64,000 nucleotides of DNA from Clostridiales bacterium (lineage in GTDB: Bacteria > Bacillota > Clostridia > Oscillospirales > Oscillospiraceae). The DNA lies in the NCBI GenBank assembly GCA_014799475.1, contig JAAVHX010000024.1:31555-95554 (forward strand), given 5' to 3'. The translations under genes were made by a program, and so were the position numbers. Numbering within the stretch: the stretch's first letter is position 1; each line of letters opens with the position of its first letter. Positions 13,104-23,647 of the stretch are shown piece after piece. A model generated the notes under the pieces. That model worked only from the letters and a program-made list of their open reading frames with translations. It was not told the DNA's origin and did not search any database.

Positions 13104-13282
13104 GTAAGAGTTGCCAAGCTTTTCATTTTTTCCCAGAGGCAAAAGGTCGAATCTTCGGGGCGGCATGGAAAAATCTGCTGTGCCACCATCCATCCCTCCA
13201 TGTAACATATCACAAAAAACGAGTTTTAAACGGAGAGAAACCTGTTTTCTGCGCTGAAAATTTGCATACGCGCAAAAAAGCG

Positions 13283-13310
13283 TTGACAAAAATCGGGTTT
13301 GTGCTATACT
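13283..13310 (+). promoter_or_regulatory. Promoter of glnA
   Basis: TTGACA (13283-13288), 16-bp spacer, TATACT (13305-13310). Expected start near 13317, giving a leader of about 140 nt before glnA that contains a terminator. Confidence 0.7.
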
Positions 13311-13327
13311 GAAACCCGTAATCGAGA

Positions 13328-13369
13328 GGACAAAGGCGTTCCGGACCGGCAGGTTTGGGACGCTTTTTT
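13328..13369 (+). promoter_or_regulatory. glnA leader: intrinsic terminator with overlapping ANTAR-type hexaloop hairpin
   Basis: Terminator: 16 consecutive pairs (with G-U) between 13332-13347 and 13352-13367, loop GGCA, and a T6 tract (13364-13369), only about 15 nt into the transcript. A competing small hairpin GGAC-AAAGGC-GTTC (13328-13341) uses the left arm of the terminator and has a six-base loop with A at position 1 and G at position 4, the hallmark recognised by ANTAR proteins. An ANTAR gene lies directly downstream of glnA. A second upstream hexaloop hairpin, normally part of the motif, was not found. Confidence 0.62.
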
Positions 13370-13456
13370 ATATCTCGGATCATCCCAGGCGCGTTGGCCG
13401 CGGGGAGGGAGCATGATTTCCCGGCGGGCCAATATAAATGAAAGGGGAAGTCAAAC

Positions 13457-14788
13457 GTGGGATACTCAAAAGAAGACATCATCCGCATCGTGAAGGAAGA
13501 GGACGTCAAGTTCATCCGGATGCAGTTCACCGACATTTTCGGCCAGCTGAAGAACGTGGCCATCACCGCCTCCCAGATCGAGCGGGCGGTCAATAACGAG
13601 ATCATGCTGGACGGCTCCTCCATCGAGGGCTTTGTCCGCATCAACGAGTCCGACCAGTACCTGTACCCCGACCTGGACAGCTTCGTCATCTTCCCCTGGC
13701 GGCCCCAGCACGGCAAGGTGGCCCGGCTCATCTGCGACGTGCACAACCCGGACGGCTCTTCCTTCGTGGGCGATCCCCGGGGCGTGCTGGAGCGGGTGCT
13801 GGAGAAGGCGAAGGCTATGGGCTACGACACCTTCAACGTGGGTCCCGAGGCGGAGTTCTTCCTGTTCCAGACCGACGAGGACGGCAAGCCCACCACCAAG
13901 ACCAACGACGAGGCGGGTTACTTCGACCTGGGCCCCCTGGACCACGGCGAGTCCACCCGGCGGGAGATCTGCCTGGCCCTGGAGCAGATGGGCTATGAGA
14001 TCGAGGCGTCCCACCACGAAGTGGCCCAGGGCCAGCACGAGATCGACTTCAAGTACGCCCCCGCCCTGGACTGCGCCGACAAGATCATGACCTTCAAGCT
14101 GGCGGTCAAGATCCTGGCCCAGAAGAACGGCCTCCACGCCACCTTCATGCCCAAACCCATTTTCGGCATCAACGGCTCCGGGATGCACACTAATATGTCC
14201 CTCTACAGGGACGGCAAGAATGTGTTCTTCGACCCCAACGGCGAGAAGCAGCTCTCCAAGGAGTGCTACTCCTTCATCGCCGGCCTCCTGGCCCATATGA
14301 AGGGCATGGCCGCCATCACCAACCCGCTGGTCAACTCCTACAAGCGGCTGGTCCCCGGCTATGAGGCCCCCTGCTACATGGCCTGGTCCGCCTCCAACCG
14401 CTCCGCGCTGATCCGCATCCCCGCCTCCCGGGGCCAGGGCACCCGGGTGGAGCTGCGCTGCCCCGATCCCTCCTGCAACCCCTACCTGGCCCTGGCGGTG
14501 TGCCTGGCCGCGGGCCTGGACGGCATCGAGAAGGGCATGACCCCGCCCCCGGAGATCACCGAGAACATCTTTGCCATGACCCCCGCCACCCGGCGCCGCC
14601 GGGGCATCGAGGCCCTGCCCGGCTCCCTGGAGGAGGCGCTGGCCGCGCTGAAGAAGGATAAGCTGGTCATGGCCACCCTGGGCGAGCACGTCAGCTCCCA
14701 GTACATCGCCGGCAAGGAGAAGGAGTGGGACGAGTACCGCACCCGCGTGTCCAGCTGGGAAGTGGACAAATACATGATCAACTATTGA
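13457..14788 (+). CDS. glnA: Type I glutamine synthetase
   Basis: 443 residues from GTG 13457 with AAAGGGGAAG upstream; length is that of the GSI-alpha group without the adenylylation loop insert. Visible landmarks are [18 protein letters not shown] (metal ligands), [38 protein letters not shown] and the C-terminal [12 protein letters not shown]. It makes glutamine from glutamate, ammonia and ATP in the cytoplasm. It heads an operon with the ANTAR regulator 30 bp downstream and sits near gltBD, completing the GS-GOGAT route of ammonia assimilation. Expression is probably governed by the leader terminator. Confidence 0.97.
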
Positions 14789-15466: not shown

Positions 15467-16261
15467 ATGGAATTCACCAAAATGCACGGCCTGGGAAACG
15501 ACTACATTTTCCTGGACTGCATGGGATCCACACCCGACAACCTGGGCGAACTGGCCCGCCGCCTGTCCCACCGCCGCTTCGGCGTGGGTGGGGACGGCAT
15601 CATCTGCGTCTGCCCGTCGGACCGCGCGGACTTCAAAATGCGGATGTTCAACGCCGACGGCTCCGAGGGGGCCATGTGCGGCAACGGCATCCGCTGCTTT
15701 GGCAAATACGTCTACGACAGGGGGCTGACGGACAAACAGCACCTCACCATCGAGACCCTGTCGGGGGAGCGTGAGCTGTCCCTGATGATCCGGGAGAAGC
15801 GGGTATATGCCGCCGTGGTGAATATGGGGATACCTGTTTTTGAACCGCCCGTCACGCTCCAAATTGAGGGGGGTGAATATACCGCCGTCCCCGTGTCCAT
15901 GGGCAACCCCCACGCGGTCATCGAGGCGGACGTCCCCGCCGCCCTTGATTTACAGACCATTGGCCCGGCTGTGGAGCGGAACCCCGCCTTTCCCCACCGG
16001 GTGAACACGGAATTCATCCGCGTTTTAAACCGGGGGGAGTTGGAACTGCGTGTCTGGGAGCGGGGCAGCGGCGAGACGATGGCCTGCGGCACCGGGGCGT
16101 GCGCGGCGGCCGCCGCCATGATGGATGCCGGAAAGCTGGACCGGGAGGCGGTGGTCCACCTGGCCGGGGGTGACCTGCGGGTGCGCTGGGACGAAAAATC
16201 CGGCCATGTGTTCATGACCGGCCCCGCCGCCGCCGTTTTTGATGGCAAACTTGACAATTGA
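15467..16261 (+). CDS. dapF: Diaminopimelate epimerase
   Basis: 264 residues from ATG 15467 (MEFTKMHGLGNDYIFLD), preceded by CAGGAGGG; the track's 15401 start has no ribosome site and adds 22 unrelated residues. Both active-site thiols are visible: MCGNGIRC (about residue 71) and ACGTGACAAA near residue 208, with GGDG and NADGSEG motifs. It converts LL- to meso-diaminopimelate for lysine and peptidoglycan. It is followed 57 bp later by dapL, which makes the LL isomer, so the pair covers the last two steps of the aminotransferase DAP route. Confidence 0.96.
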   Translation: MEFTKMHGLGNDYIFLDCMGSTPDNLGELARRLSHRRFGVGGDGIICVCPSDRADFKMRMFNADGSEGAMCGNGIRCFGKYVYDRGLTDKQHLTIETLSGERELSLMIREKRVYAAVVNMGIPVFEPPVTLQIEGGEYTAVPVSMGNPHAVIEADVPAALDLQTIGPAVERNPAFPHRVNTEFIRVLNRGELELRVWERGSGETMACGTGACAAAAAMMDAGKLDREAVVHLAGGDLRVRWDEKSGHVFMTGPAAAVFDGKLDN

Positions 16262-16287
16262 CCGCGCTGCCCTTTTTGCGGTAGAAT
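16258..16287 (+). promoter_or_regulatory. Promoter in front of dapL
   Basis: TTGACC (16258-16263), 18-bp spacer, TAGAAT (16282-16287), 31 bp ahead of the dapL ATG. Confidence 0.5.
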
Positions 16288-16318
16288 GATTTAAACAAAT
16301 AAAGCGAGGAGTGGTCCC

Positions 16319-17536
16319 ATGGCCCACATCAATCAAAACTTTCTCAAGCTGCCGGGGGGCTACCTGTTCCCGGAGATCGGCCGCCGGGTGCGGGCCTTTT
16401 CCGCCCAGAACCCGCCCATGCCCCTGATCCGGCTGGGCATTGGCGACGTGACCCAGCCCCTGGCCCCCGTGGTGGTGGACGCCATGGTGAAGGCGTCCAA
16501 AGAGATGGGGGTGAAGGAGACCTTCCGGGGCTACTGCGAGGAGACCTGCTGCGCCTACGATTTCCTGCGCTTTGCTATCCAGAACTCCTACAAGGAGCGG
16601 GGGGTGGACATCGCCGACGATGAGATCTTCGTGTCCGACGGCGCCAAAAGCGACTGCGGCAATATCGGCGACATCTTCTCGGCGGACAACGTGGTGGCGG
16701 TGTGCGACCCGGTGTACCCGGTGTACGTGGACACCAACGCCATGGCAGGCCGGGCCGGCGACCACGACGGGGAGAAGTGGACAAATCTGGTCTACCTGCC
16801 CTGCACGGCGGAAAACGGCTTCTTCCCCGAGCTGCCCCAGGGGAAGGTGCCCGACCTTATTTACATCTGCTCCCCCAACAACCCCACCGGCACGGCGGCG
16901 ACAAAGGAGCAGCTCAAGGTCTGGGTGGACTACGCCAACGCCCATGACAGCGTGATTTTGTATGACTCCGCCTACGAGGCGTTCATCCGGGAGGAGGGCG
17001 TCCCCCACAGCATCTTTGAGGTGGAGGGGGCCAAGACCTGCACCATTGAGTTCCGCTCCTTCTCCAAGACCGCCGGGTTCACCGGCACCCGCTGCGCCTA
17101 CACCGTGATCCCCAAGGCGCTGGAGCGGGACGGCGCGTCCCTGAACGCGCTGTGGAACCGCCGCCAGGGCACCAAGTTCAACGGCGTGCCCTATGTGATC
17201 CAGCGGGCGGCGGAGGCGGTGTTCACCGACGAGGGCAAGGCCCAGACAAAGGCCGCCATCGACTACTACCTGAACAACGCCAAGGTCATCCGGGAGGGCC
17301 TTGTCAAGGCGGGTCTGACGGTGTACGGCGGGGTGAACGCCCCATACCTGTGGGTGAAAACGCCCAGCAATACGCCGTCCTGGGACTTCTTCGACCTGCT
17401 GTTGAAGCGGGCGTGCGTGGTCACCACCCCCGGCGCGGGTTTCGGCCCCAGCGGGGAGGGGTACATCCGGGTCACCGCCTTCGGCGACGCGGACGCCACA
17501 AAGGAAGCGGTGCGGCGCATCGTCTCGGTACTGTAA
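16319..17536 (+). CDS. dapL: LL-diaminopimelate aminotransferase
   Basis: 405 residues, the usual length of DapL. The N-terminus [19 protein letters not shown] followed by [11 protein letters not shown] is characteristic, with [12 protein letters not shown] in the PLP fold and the lysine motif [15 protein letters not shown]. It converts tetrahydrodipicolinate and glutamate directly to LL-DAP, bypassing the succinyl or acetyl branches. The glutamate donor links it to the adjacent gltBD. Ribosome site AGCGAGGAG. The next gene follows after a strong hairpin. Confidence 0.96.
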
Positions 17537-17550
17537 AATATAGAGACCAG

Positions 17551-17613
17551 AACCCGGCCCAACGGGGGGCAGGAGGGGGAAAATTCCTCTTTACCCCTGC
17601 TGGGCCGGGTTTC
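17551..17613 (+). promoter_or_regulatory. dapL/gltB intergenic terminator, possible ANTAR-controlled attenuator
   Basis: Stem AACCCGGCCCA / TGGGCCGGGTT (17551-17561 with 17601-17611) with further inner pairing, ending only about 20 bases before the gltB ATG. Within its left arm lies GCCC-AACGGG-GGGC (17557-17570), a hexaloop hairpin with A1 and G4. No promoter is seen between this hairpin and gltB, so gltB transcription must pass through it. Attenuation is inferred. Confidence 0.5.
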
Positions 17614-17630
17614 GTTTGGAGGATACGGAT

Positions 17631-20600
17631 ATGAAGCAAGAGCGGGAGCAGATACGGGGGCCGCTGTACGACCCCCGGTTCGAGCACGACAACTGCGGCA
17701 TCGGGGCCGTGGTGGACATCAAGGGCCGAAAAACCCACGAAACAGTGGACGACGCGCTGAAGATCGTGGAAAAGCTGGAGCACCGGGCGGGCAAGGACGC
17801 CGAGGGCCAGACCGGCGACGGCGTGGGCATCCTGGTGCAGATCTCCCATGCGTTTTTTGTGAAAGCGGCGGGGGAGCGCGGCATCGCCCTGGGTGGCGAG
17901 CGGGATTACGGCATCGGGATGTTCTTCTTCCCCCAGGAGACCCTGCGCCGGAACCAGGCCATGAAGATGTTCGAGCTCATCGTGGCCAAGGAAGGGATGG
18001 AGTTCATCGGCTGGCGGGAGGTGCCGGTGCGCCCGGAGGTATTGGGGCATAAGGCGCTGGCCAAAATGCCCCGGATCATGCAGGGCTTTGTCCGCCGCCC
18101 GGACAAGCTGGCAAAGGGGCTGGAATTCGACCGGCGGCTGTATATCGTCCGCCGGGAGTTCGAGCAGTCCAACGACAATACATACGTGGCGTCCCTGTCC
18201 AGCCGGACGATTGTCTATAAGGGGATGTTCCTGGTGGGACAGCTGCGGCAGTTCTACCCCGACCTGCAGAGCGAGACATATACCTCCGCCATCGCCCTGG
18301 TCCACTCCCGGTTCTCCACCAACACCAACCCCTCCTGGGAGCGGGCCCACCCTAACCGGCTCATCCTCCACAACGGGGAGATCAACACCATCCGGGGCAA
18401 CGTGGACCGGATGCTGGCCAGGGAGGAGACCATGCACGCCCCCGTTTGGGACAAGGACATCGACAAGGTGTTCCCGGTGGTGAATGTGGACGGTTCCGAC
18501 TCCGCCATGCTGGACAACACCCTGGAATTCCTGGTGATGAGCGGCATGGAGCTGCCCCTGGCGGTGATGATCTGTATCCCGGAGCCGTGGATGAAGGACG
18601 AAAACCTGTCCCGGGCCCGCCGGGACCTGTACCAATACTACGCCGTGATGATGGAGCCCTGGGACGGCCCGGCCTCCATCCTGTTTTCCGACGGCGACCA
18701 GGTGGGGGCGGTGCTGGACCGCAACGGCCTGCGCCCCTCCCGGTACTATGTCACCGACGATGGCCGGCTGATCTTGTCCTCCGAGGTGGGGGTGCTGGAC
18801 ATCGACCCCGCCCACATCGTGAGCAAATCCCGGCTGGAGCCGGGGAAGATGCTGCTGGTGGACACCGTCCAGGGCCGCGTCATCGGCGACAGCGAGATCA
18901 AAGAGGGCTATGCCGGGCGCAACCCCTACGGCGAGTGGCTGGACAGAAACCTGGTAAAGCTGAAGGATCTGCCCATCCCCAACAAGCGCGTGGAGCGGTA
19001 CAGCCCGGAGCGCCGGGCCCAGGTGCAGAAGGCGTTTGGCTACACCTATGAGGACGTGAAGGACGCCATCCTGCCCATGGCCCGCGCCGGCGCGGAGAGT
19101 ACCGCCGCCATGGGCGCGGACGTCCCGCTGGCGGTGCTGTCCGGCCATGACCAGCCCTTGTTCAGCTACTTCCGGCAGCTCTTTGCCCAGGTGACCAACC
19201 CGCCCATCGACGCCATCCGGGAGGAGATCGTCACCGACACCACCGTGTACGTGGGCGACGACGGCAATCTTTTGGAGGAACAGGGAGCGAACTGCCGGGT
19301 GCTGCAGATCCACAACCCCATTCTGACCTCCGTGGATCTGATGAAGATCCGTGCCATGGACAAGCCGGGCTTCCATGTGGAGACGGTGTCCCTGCTCTAC
19401 TTTAAAAATATGCCCCTGAAGCGGGCGCTGGATCAGATGAAGATCGCCGCGGACCGGGCCTACCGTAACGGGGCCAACATCATCATCCTGTCCGACCGGG
19501 GGGTGGACGAGAACCATGTGGCCATCCCGTCCCTGCTGGCGGTGTCTTGCCTGGAGCAGCACCTGGTGCGCACCCGCAAGCGCACGGCGGTGTCCGTGAT
19601 CCTGGAGTCCGCCGAGCCCCGGGACGTCCACCATTTCGCCGCCCTGCTGGGCTACGGCGCCCGGGCCATCAACCCCTACCTGGCCCAGGAGACCATCGGC
19701 CAGCTCATCGACGAGGGGCTGCTGGACAAGGACTTCGGCGCGGCGGTGGACGACTATAACAAGGCGGTTTTGCACGGCATTGTGAAGATCGCCTCCAAGA
19801 TGGGCATCTCCACCATCCAGTCCTACCAGTCCGCCCAGATTTTCGAGGCCGTTGGCATCGCCAAAGACGTGGTGGACGAATACTTTACCAACACCGTTTC
19901 CCGGGTGGGGGGAATCGGGCTGAAGGAGATCGAGCGGCTGGTGGACAAGAACCACAGCCGGGCCTTTGACCCCCTGGGCCTGGGCGTGGATAAAACGCTG
20001 GATTCTGTGGGCGCCCACAAGGCCCGCTCGGGGCAGGAAGACCATATGTACAACCCTAAGACCATCCACCTGCTCCAGCAGTCCACCCGCACCGGGGATT
20101 ACGGGCTGTTCAAGCAGTACAGCGCCCTGGTGGACGACGAGACCTGCCCCCACACCCTCCGGGGGCTGATGGAGATGAAGTACGCCGACGAGCCCATCCC
20201 CATCGACGAAGTGGAGAGCGTGGACTCCATCGTCAAACGCTTCAAGACCGGGGCCATGAGCTACGGCTCCATCTCCCAGGAGGCCCACGAGTGCATGGCT
20301 CAGGCCATGAATATGTTGGGCGGCAAGTCCAACTCCGGCGAGGGCGGCGAGCGGCCCGATCGGCTGAAATCCGACCGCTGCTCCGCCATCAAACAGGTGG
20401 CCTCCGGGCGGTTCGGCGTCACCAGCGAATATCTGGTGAGCGCGAAGGAGATCCAGATCAAAATGGCCCAGGGGGCCAAGCCCGGGGAGGGCGGACACCT
20501 GCCGGGGAAAAAGGTCTACCCCTGGATCGCCAAGACCCGGTACTCCACCCCCGGCGTATCCTTGATCTCTCCGCCGCCCCACCATGACATCTATTCCATT

Positions 20601-22169
20601 GAGGATCTGGCCCAGCTCATCTACGACCTGAAAAACGCCAACAGGCAGGCCCGCATTTCCGTCAAGCTGGTCAGCGAAGCGGGCGTGGGCACCGTGGCGG
20701 CGGGCGTGGCGAAGGCGGGCGCCCAGGTGGTGCTCATCTCCGGCTGGGACGGCGGCACCGGGGCCGCGCCCCGCACCTCCATCCACAACGCCGGCCTGCC
20801 CTGGGAGCTGGGGCTGGCGGAGACCCACCAGACCCTGATCCAGAACGACCTGCGCTCCCGGGTGGTGGTGGAAACCGACGGAAAGCTGATGACCGGCCGG
20901 GACGTGGCCATCGCCTGTATGCTGGGGGCGGAGGAGTTCGGCTTTGCCACCGCGCCGCTGGTCACCATGGGCTGCGTGATGATGCGCGTCTGCAACCTGG
21001 ACACCTGCCCCGTGGGCGTGGCCACCCAGAACCCCGAGCTGCGCAAGCGTTTTGCCGGCAAGCCGGAGTACGTGGTCAACTTCATGCGCTTCATCGCCCA
21101 GGAGCTGCGGGAGCACATGGCAAAGCTGGGCGTGCGCACCGTGGACGAGCTGGTGGGCCGCACCGACCTGCTGAAAAAGCGGGACAAGGCGGTGAACGAC
21201 CGGGCCGCCACCGTGGACCTGTCCGTCATTCTGGACAATCCCTATGTGGGCGAGGAATACAAGACCCACTTTGACGCTGCCGACATCTATGACTTCCAGC
21301 TGGAGCAGACGGTGGACCAGTCAGTGCTGCTGGCAAAGATGGGTTCCGCCCTGAAAAAGGGCCAGAAAAAACAGCTCGCCCTGGACGTCACCTCCACCGA
21401 CCGGGCCGTGGGGACGATGTTCGGCTCCGACATCACCCGCCTTCACGGGGAGGGGCTGGAGGAGGACACCTTCACCGTCCATTGCTCCGGCGGCGGTGGA
21501 CAGTCCTTCGGCGCGTTCATCCCCAAGGGGCTGACCCTGGAGCTGGAAGGGGACTCCAACGACTACTTCGGCAAGGGACTGTCCGGCGGCAAGCTGGCGG
21601 TATACCCGCCGAAAACCGCCCGCTACAAGGCGGATGAGAACATCATCATCGGCAACGTGGCCCTGTACGGGGCCACCTCCGGCAAGGCGTTCATCGCGGG
21701 CGTGGCCGGGGAGCGGTTCGCCGTGCGCAACTCCGGGGCCGTGGCCGTGGTGGAGGGCGTGGGCGACCACGGCTGCGAGTACATGACCGGGGGCCGGGTA
21801 GTCGTCCTCGGCGAGACGGGCAAGAACTTTGCCGCGGGCATGAGCGGCGGCATCGCCTATGTCTGGGACCCCAGGCGGGATCTGTACCTGCGGGTGAACA
21901 AGGAGCTGGTGTCCATCGAGCCGGTGCGGTCGAAGCATGACCTGGAGGAGCTGCGCTCCCTGATCGCCCAGCACGTGGAGGCCACCGACTCGGAGAAGGG
22001 CAAAGCGATCCTGGCGGACTTCGAGCACAGTTCCGAAAGCTTTAAGAAGATCCTGCCCCGGGATTACGACCGCATTTTAAAGGCCATCGCCCAGTTCGAG
22101 GAGCGGGGCATGGGCCATGACGAGGCGGAGATCGAGGCGTTTTACGCCGTGACGGGAGGTGCGCGATAA
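17631..22169 (+). CDS. gltB: Glutamate synthase, large subunit
   Basis: 1,512 residues from ATG 17631 with GGAGG 8 bases upstream. After a short propeptide comes CGIGAVVD, whose Cys (residue 22) becomes the N-terminal nucleophile of the class II glutamine amidotransferase domain (to about 430). A central domain, an FMN-binding synthase barrel (MSYGSISQEAHE, EGGHLPGKKVYPWIAKTR, SGWDGGTGAAPRTS), the 3Fe-4S motif CVMMRVCNLDTCPVG near residue 1115 and a C-terminal beta-helix (GKGLSGGKLAVYPP) follow. It forms two glutamates from glutamine and 2-oxoglutarate and accepts electrons from GltD, whose gene overlaps by one base. Confidence 0.97.
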   Translation: MKQEREQIRGPLYDPRFEHDNCGIGAVVDIKGRKTHETVDDALKIVEKLEHRAGKDAEGQTGDGVGILVQISHAFFVKAAGERGIALGGERDYGIGMFFFPQETLRRNQAMKMFELIVAKEGMEFIGWREVPVRPEVLGHKALAKMPRIMQGFVRRPDKLAKGLEFDRRLYIVRREFEQSNDNTYVASLSSRTIVYKGMFLVGQLRQFYPDLQSETYTSAIALVHSRFSTNTNPSWERAHPNRLILHNGEINTIRGNVDRMLAREETMHAPVWDKDIDKVFPVVNVDGSDSAMLDNTLEFLVMSGMELPLAVMICIPEPWMKDENLSRARRDLYQYYAVMMEPWDGPASILFSDGDQVGAVLDRNGLRPSRYYVTDDGRLILSSEVGVLDIDPAHIVSKSRLEPGKMLLVDTVQGRVIGDSEIKEGYAGRNPYGEWLDRNLVKLKDLPIPNKRVERYSPERRAQVQKAFGYTYEDVKDAILPMARAGAESTAAMGADVPLAVLSGHDQPLFSYFRQLFAQVTNPPIDAIREEIVTDTTVYVGDDGNLLEEQGANCRVLQIHNPILTSVDLMKIRAMDKPGFHVETVSLLYFKNMPLKRALDQMKIAADRAYRNGANIIILSDRGVDENHVAIPSLLAVSCLEQHLVRTRKRTAVSVILESAEPRDVHHFAALLGYGARAINPYLAQETIGQLIDEGLLDKDFGAAVDDYNKAVLHGIVKIASKMGISTIQSYQSAQIFEAVGIAKDVVDEYFTNTVSRVGGIGLKEIERLVDKNHSRAFDPLGLGVDKTLDSVGAHKARSGQEDHMYNPKTIHLLQQSTRTGDYGLFKQYSALVDDETCPHTLRGLMEMKYADEPIPIDEVESVDSIVKRFKTGAMSYGSISQEAHECMAQAMNMLGGKSNSGEGGERPDRLKSDRCSAIKQVASGRFGVTSEYLVSAKEIQIKMAQGAKPGEGGHLPGKKVYPWIAKTRYSTPGVSLISPPPHHDIYSIEDLAQLIYDLKNANRQARISVKLVSEAGVGTVAAGVAKAGAQVVLISGWDGGTGAAPRTSIHNAGLPWELGLAETHQTLIQNDLRSRVVVETDGKLMTGRDVAIACMLGAEEFGFATAPLVTMGCVMMRVCNLDTCPVGVATQNPELRKRFAGKPEYVVNFMRFIAQELREHMAKLGVRTVDELVGRTDLLKKRDKAVNDRAATVDLSVILDNPYVGEEYKTHFDAADIYDFQLEQTVDQSVLLAKMGSALKKGQKKQLALDVTSTDRAVGTMFGSDITRLHGEGLEEDTFTVHCSGGGGQSFGAFIPKGLTLELEGDSNDYFGKGLSGGKLAVYPPKTARYKADENIIIGNVALYGATSGKAFIAGVAGERFAVRNSGAVAVVEGVGDHGCEYMTGGRVVVLGETGKNFAAGMSGGIAYVWDPRRDLYLRVNKELVSIEPVRSKHDLEELRSLIAQHVEATDSEKGKAILADFEHSSESFKKILPRDYDRILKAIAQFEERGMGHDEAEIEAFYAVTGGAR

Positions 22170-23647
22170 TGGGAAAGCCAACCGGATTTTTAGAATATAG
22201 CCGTCAGGGCAACCCCGGCCAGCCGCCCCTGGAGCGTATTCGGCATTGGAACGAGTTCCATCCCATGCTGCCCGAGGAAGAGCGGCGGAAGCAGGGCGCC
22301 CGGTGCATGGAGTGCGGCGTGCCCTTCTGCCAGTCCGGGGTGGAGCTGGCGGGGATGTTCACCGGGTGCCCCCTGCACAACCTGGTGCCGGAGTGGAACG
22401 ACCTGGTGTACACCGGCAACATGGACCACGCCCTGAGCCGTCTGACCAAGACCAACAGCTTCCCGGAGTTTACGGGCCGGGTGTGCCCCGCGCTGTGCGA
22501 GGCGGCGTGCACCTGCGGGCTCAATGGCGACCCGGTGACGGTGAAGGAGAACGAGCTTGCCATCATCGAAGCGGGCTTCGCCTCGGGGGCCATGGGGCCC
22601 CAGCCGCCCCGTGTCCGCACCGGCAAGCGGGTGGCGGTGGTGGGCAGCGGCCCCGCGGGCCTTGCCGCTGCCAATCAGCTCAACCGCCGGGGCCATACCG
22701 TCACCGTGTTCGAGCGGGAGGACCGGGTGGGGGGCCTGCTGATGTACGGCATCCCCAACATGAAGCTGCAAAAGGAGGTCATCGCCCGCCGCGCCGACTT
22801 GATGGCGGCGGAGGGGGTGGAGCTGCGCACCTCCTGCGACGTGGGCCGGGACGTGTCCGCCCAAGAACTGCTGGATGAGTTTGACGCGGTGATTTTGTGC
22901 TGCGGGGCGAAAAAGCCCCGTGGGCTGGCCGTGGCGGAGGGCGTGAACGGCGCGTATTACGCGGTGGGCTTCCTGACCTCAACCACCAGATCCCTGCTGG
23001 ACAGCGGGCTTGCCAAGGGCACCTACATTGACGCGGCTGACAAAGACGTGGTCATTGTGGGCGGCGGCGACACCGGCAACGACTGCGTGGGCACCGCCAT
23101 CCGCCACGGGTGCAGATCCGTCATCCAGCTGGAGATGATGCCCAAGGCCCCCGACAGCCGCACCGATGACAACCCCTGGCCCCAATGGCCGAAGGTGTGC
23201 AAGACGGACTACGGCCAGGAGGAGGCCATCGCGGTGTTTGGGGCCGATCCCCGCCGCTACCAGACCACGGTGAAGGAGTGCCGCACCGATGAAAACGGGG
23301 CGCTGGCCTCCATCGTCACCGTGAAGCTGGAGCCGAAGGTGGAGGGCGGCCGCAGGATCATGGCGGAGGTCCCCGGCAGCGAGGAGGAGCTGCCCTGCCA
23401 GCTTTTGCTCATCGCGGCGGGTTTCCTGGGGCCGGAGGACTATGCGGCCGACGCTTTTGGGGTGGGCCGGGACGGGCGCTCCAATGTGGCTACCGCCCCC
23501 GGCGGCTATGCCACGGGAATTGATAAGGTGTTCGCCGCCGGGGATATGCGCCGGGGCCAGTCCCTGGTGGTGTGGGGCATCGCCGAGGGCTGCGCCGCCG
23601 CCCGGGAAGTGGACGAGTATCTCATGGGGTATAGCAGCCTGAGTTGA
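22169..23647 (+). CDS. gltD: Glutamate synthase, small subunit
   Basis: 492 residues; ATG shares its A with the gltB stop (TAATG), so translation is coupled. Cysteine clusters for two 4Fe-4S centres are visible near the N-terminus (CMECGVPFC...[10 protein letters not shown]). An FAD fold ([36 protein letters not shown]) and an NADPH fold ([20 protein letters not shown]) follow, and the C-terminal [19 protein letters not shown] closes the family pattern. It oxidises NAD(P)H and feeds electrons to GltB. Confidence 0.97.

Follow-up and report, generated by a model that had tools for sequence, protein, structure and literature searches.

A probable ANTAR-controlled transcription attenuator with a single 5'-terminal hexaloop hairpin at the glnA-nitR-gltBD locus of an Oscillospiraceae bacterium

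Introduction

Can one hexaloop hairpin, situated right at a transcript's 5' end, serve an ANTAR protein as the target through which transcription of glnA is attenuated? The question is raised by a glnA leader of an Oscillospiraceae bacterium, since characterised ANTAR targets all have two hairpins, and genome searches in the literature that we consulted required the dual form. In the EutV system, deletion of the P1 hairpin abolishes induction, one hairpin being insufficient in vivo (PMC3369931); structural work on EutV bound to RNA led to a single hexaloop being taken as the minimal binding motif, the protein binding one at a time (PMC8934654), and Walshe et al. left the extent of single-hexaloop targets as a question (PMC8934654). 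Other ANTAR proteins, such as AmiR and NasT, are not controlled by receiver phosphorylation or are held by a partner (PMC8934654, PMC3795266). ANTAR targets have also been predicted at glutamate/glutamine synthase genes of Firmicutes such as Desulfotomaculum (PMC3369931), that is, at the same class of gene as studied here, by a dual-hairpin search model that would tend to miss single-hairpin leaders. Our literature search found no paper on clostridial glnA/ANTAR leaders.

The DNA analysed, hereafter the window, is a stretch of 64,000 nt from a Clostridiales bacterium (Oscillospiraceae; GCA_014799475.1, contig JAAVHX010000024.1, positions 31,555-95,554, forward strand), whose genome assembly is about 87% complete. 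An initial annotation, made from the letters of the window, had proposed ANTAR-type antitermination of glnA, noting that only one hexaloop hairpin was visible where two are usual. Here, we describe the locus, its comparison with relatives, and the readings that it allows.

Results

The glnA-nitR locus

The features of the locus, in window coordinates, are as follows.

13261..13276, no strand assigned: palindrome TTTGCA-N4-TGCAAA with one mismatch, 6 nt upstream of the -35 box; possible DNA operator, accessory
13283..13310, + strand: promoter TTGACA-16-TATACT with TG before the -10 box (extended -10); consensus scan, 11/12 matches
13328..13341, + strand: single ANTAR-type hexaloop hairpin GGAC[AAAGGC]GTTC, putative antiterminator; first fold of the growing transcript, conserved and covarying
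13332..13369, + strand: intrinsic terminator of 16 pairs with T6, its 5' arm beginning with the hexaloop; folding, and overlapping terminators in relatives
13457..14788, + strand: glnA, glutamine synthetase; Pfam PF00120 and PF03951
14819..15382, + strand: nitR-like gene, encoding a receiver-fold domain lacking the phospho-acceptor Asp, a long helix and a C-terminal ANTAR domain
15467..23647, + strand: presumed dapF, dapL, gltB and gltD (reading frames, named by recognition); possible further read-through targets

The glnA gene starts with GTG, 87 nt after the terminator, and is followed after a gap of 30 nt by a gene whose product matches the Pfam ANTAR family (PF03861; 65.5 bits against a cut-off of 27.3, E = 3.8e-18), which bears out the claim that an ANTAR gene adjoins glnA. 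No other ANTAR gene was found in this genome, given the completeness of its assembly. A gene that we take by recognition to be ppdK-like lies upstream of the glnA leader in divergent orientation, and the order glnA-nitR-(dapF-dapL)-gltB is widely kept among relatives. Clostridium saccharobutylicum reportedly carries a glnA-linked ANTAR gene, NitR, in the order glnA-nitR-gltAB, said to have been proposed to act on glnA; from this case, whose likeness to the window lies in the gene order and the ANTAR protein, we borrow the name nitR.

A hexaloop hairpin and a terminator that exclude each other

Transcription of the window glnA leader is predicted to start near 13317. The terminator, described in the initial annotation as a 16-pair helix with T6 about 15 nt into the transcript, was recovered at that distance from the predicted start: its helix (13332-13367) has a 4-nt loop, the six T occupy 13364-13369, and its energy of -24.1 kcal/mol (z = -4.96) was equalled by 0 of 200 shuffles. 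The competing hairpin, likewise retained, carries both A1 and G4 in its loop, and since its loop and 3' arm are common to the 5' arm of the terminator, the two structures are mutually exclusive.

When successive transcript lengths were folded, the hairpin was the minimum-energy fold from 13341 until the polymerase had passed about 13356; forcing the hairpin gave -9.0 kcal/mol against -24.1 kcal/mol for the free fold, the terminator displacing the hairpin. In these models the fold order is the predicted layout of a co-transcriptional switch that would need a stabilising factor. The hairpin stem has only 4 bp (about -2 kcal/mol), and in the window by itself it constitutes weak evidence, such a stem arising in 4.6% of cases when the upstream bases are shuffled; it is on account of the conservation in relatives described below, and not of the window alone, that we take the predicted hairpin to be real.

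Two further pairings were observed. CGAGA (13322-13326) pairs with TCTCG (13373-13377) in the full-length fold, enclosing the terminator, and some near relatives (L117, L119) show a comparable pairing. A second strong hairpin, TTGGCC..GGCCAA (13393-13433), precedes the glnA ribosome site, and is also present in near relatives (L112-L114).

Conservation among the glnA leaders of relatives

A protein search in 201 genomes of the family gave about 48 strong NitR orthologues, nearly all encoded just 3' of glnA. The glnA leaders of these orthologues were compared together with loci from named genomes, covering Flavonifractor, Pseudoflavonifractor, Intestinimonas, Oscillibacter, other Oscillospiraceae, some Lachnospiraceae and other Clostridia; 127 of the leaders came from ANTAR-gene loci. 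In 88 of these 127, from Oscillospiraceae, Lachnospiraceae and other Clostridia, a hexaloop stands at the equivalent place, with a matching promoter 9-23 nt (in one case 32) before the loop. The typical leader reads TTGACA-17-TATACT, about 15 nt, GAAC[GAAGGC]GTTCCGACCC..GGGCGGAGCGCCTTC, followed by a T-rich tract. Where a terminator was detected in relatives, the loop and 3' arm of the hairpin nearly always lie inside the terminator 5' arm, and in some clades the whole hairpin is taken into the terminator.

Pairing holds for 96.2% of the stem cells of the first 33 distinct sequences, a value that none of 500 shuffles and none of the slid controls reached. Because most of these rows had been chosen with a stem criterion, the pairing test was repeated with other anchors, namely the promoter and C-RANGRN-G only, which impose the closing C-G pair, loop position 2 and G4. 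The anchor was present in 88 of the 127 leaders (68 distinct sequences). At the three stem positions left free, pairs form in 68, 56 and 65 of those 68 sequences, 189 in all; 2000 shuffles, uncorrected for relatedness, averaged 174 and reached 184 at most. As read from the aligned leaders, the stem pairs and covaries; counting against it, the 4-bp stem carries an A-C mismatch in one clade. The loop has G4 in 33/33 of the first distinct relatives, with A1 in 22 and G1 in 11, so that position 1, called conserved as A in ANTAR-target RNA, is here G in a third of the sequences.

The element is missing at glnA in several relatives that keep nitR beside the gene, including two genomes of the same genus, in which no convincing copy was found elsewhere (covariance-model matches all at E >= 0.275, judged by score alone). 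It may be, therefore, that NitR acts on other targets or that the attenuator can be dispensed with. In three close relatives (L003, L006, L122), nitR, the gene order and the upstream palindrome are kept, and the hexaloop hairpin and terminator are absent. Separately, the glnA leaders L036, L039, L158 and L163 contain a further -10-like box, TATAAT, past the terminator and ahead of glnA, suggestive of a bypass promoter.

One hexaloop rather than two

The single hexaloop of the window, flagged at the outset as a departure from the usual pair, proved to be a conserved property of the relatives' leaders. With +1 set 7 nt after the -10 box, the predicted distance from start to hairpin is below 12 nt in 86 of the 88 leaders, leaving no room for a second hairpin, and in some leaders only 0-4 nt; a first, upstream hexaloop was sought in all 88 and none has one. 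Judged by its sequence, the glnA element is not a canonical dual-hexaloop target: the tandem pair is absent, whereas the hexaloop, its overlap with the terminator and the ANTAR gene are present.

The NitR protein

In the AlphaFold2 model of the window protein (mean pLDDT 85, pTM 0.60), a receiver fold is followed by a long helix and then by an ANTAR bundle of three helices, and the best Foldseek matches covering both domains were Rv1626, EutV and AmiR; by sequence, no Pfam receiver match was found in this protein. The phospho-acceptor position is Gly, within VVCG[FY]K (in the region of residues 49-57), and is never Asp among nitR orthologues; Cys52, in the same motif, is invariant among them. 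Since Gly replaces the phospho-acceptor Asp, the input is not classical phosphorylation and the signal must arrive by another route, as in AmiR; at a guess, NitR may have a partner, for instance inhibited GlnA.

Of the residues by which EutV contacts the loop, the window protein has R142, K149, E160, M172 and R177 unchanged and Arg in place of K147; where EutV stacks Tyr164 on G4, every orthologue has a His, also of aromatic type; and K143, R168, N173 and R175 are not kept in the window protein. A second class of ANTAR proteins (L052-L061), with INAPL or INSPL in the receiver and also lacking the Asp, is mostly encoded beside a more distant glnA whose leaders mostly have no hairpin.

Association of the motif with ANTAR genes

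The 26-nt hairpin region was turned into a covariance model, with leaders of ANTAR-bearing genomes as the training set, and a scan of the 201 family genomes gave matches at E up to 0.1 in 50 of them. After the context was read, matches with promoter and terminator remained in 29 genomes; ANTAR genes occur in 28 of these and in 125 of all 201 (Fisher p = 6e-6, uncorrected for ancestry and with a model trained on ANTAR-bearing genomes). The single exception is a 67% complete genome in which an ANTAR gene was undetected, and its site (L081) precedes an ATP-grasp-like gene. One relative (L077) has the full promoter-hairpin-terminator layout upstream of gltB; further sites lie at glnA genes (L078-L080, L085) and before genes that we presume, by recognition, to encode class-II amidotransferase-like proteins (L086, L089, L092). 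The recurrence of this layout before gltB, amidotransferase-like and ATP-grasp-like genes points to a putative wider regulon in some relatives.

In the genome of the window, only the glnA leader passes; the other matches, with no promoter-terminator layout and mostly within reading frames, were set aside as chance, as were weak matches in relatives (L082-L084, L087, L088, L090, L091, L093-L111), where the layout is missing and most lie inside reading frames. A search of Rfam gave no match at the gathering score, and a weak match to HIV_FS2 on the minus strand was dismissed as chance.

The upstream palindrome

The palindrome stands exactly 6 nt upstream of the -35 box in 11 leaders, those of the window and of ten relatives of its clade, and is likely to be a DNA operator with its own regulator. 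The genome of the window has eight such sites at up to one mismatch, the perfect one (L209) beside an integrase-like gene. An inverted repeat around the -10 box, CGGGTTT/AAACCCG (13294-13318), was rejected as an operator, being broken in L113 and L115.

Discussion

Taken together, the sequence, the predicted structures, their conservation and the association with ANTAR genes make it probable, in our judgement, that an ANTAR-controlled transcription attenuator with a single 5'-terminal hexaloop operates at glnA-nitR-gltBD. ANTAR-type antitermination, as first proposed, is still the best reading, given a hairpin-terminator overlap conserved across genera, a stem that covaries and a motif that tracks ANTAR genes; the linkage of glnA with an ANTAR gene and the second copy before gltB in one relative lend it support. 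RNA polymerase would start near 13317, and the hexaloop hairpin would be the first RNA structure possible. Without protein, the terminator would displace the hairpin and a leader of about 50 nt would be released. Active NitR, presumably under some nitrogen signal, would bind and hold the hexaloop, the terminator 5' arm would stay occupied, and polymerase would go on into glnA and nitR and, probably, the gltBD block, closing a positive, autoregulatory loop.

Other explanations were weighed against this one. A conventional dual-hexaloop target whose first hairpin is hidden, either because transcription starts further upstream or because that hairpin is degenerate, would agree with all characterised targets, and the start is here a prediction; the short spacing in nearly every leader and the lack of any first hexaloop make it improbable. 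We hold just as improbable an unregulated attenuator that merely lowers glnA expression, with the hairpin as a by-product: a strong terminator near a strong promoter would be enough for this, and the stem has only 4 bp, yet the hairpin 5' arm, which lies outside the window terminator, is complementary across leaders, and motif copies track ANTAR genes.

Slightly less probable still is that nitrogen control of glnA runs mainly through a DNA-binding regulator at TTTGCA-N4-TGCAAA, NitR and the attenuator being minor. The fixed spacing of the palindrome, also in the attenuator-less L003, L006 and L122, speaks for such a regulator; however, the palindrome is limited to the window clade, whereas the hairpin and terminator are far wider, and both controls may coexist. 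As binding of the ANTAR protein to the hairpin is a prediction, the switch might instead be read by a metabolite or another RNA-binding protein, but the absence of an Rfam match, the ANTAR-type G4 of the loop and the genomic association render this very improbable, the least favoured of all.

The attenuator proposed here resembles that of EutV in the Enterococcus faecalis eut leaders (PMC3369931, PMC8934654), where an A1/G4 hexaloop hairpin overlaps an intrinsic terminator and the protein joins a receiver to an ANTAR domain, and the closing pairs AC/GU of the glnA hairpin are as in eutP P1. Conversely, EutV leaders have two hairpins with a 5-12 nt linker, loop position 1 is A or G among the relatives studied here, and NitR lacks the phospho-acceptor Asp. 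NitR is like AmiR in fusing a pseudo-receiver to ANTAR, and AmiR and NasT also govern nitrogen genes; unlike in those systems, no AmiC-like or NasS-like partner gene was recognised beside nitR. From the targets of EutV, NasR and AmiR alike, the glnA leaders differ in their single hexaloop at the transcript 5' end.

On balance, we lean towards the view that one 5'-end hexaloop suffices, and that these leaders represent an overlooked class of ANTAR target (RANGGY) for control of glnA and gltB in gut Oscillospiraceae and related Clostridia, served by an unphosphorylated receiver-ANTAR protein. Dozens of natural one-hexaloop leaders, by prediction without space for another, make the sufficiency of a single hairpin testable. 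If the proposal is true, ammonium assimilation in gut Clostridia would have an attenuator at its centre.
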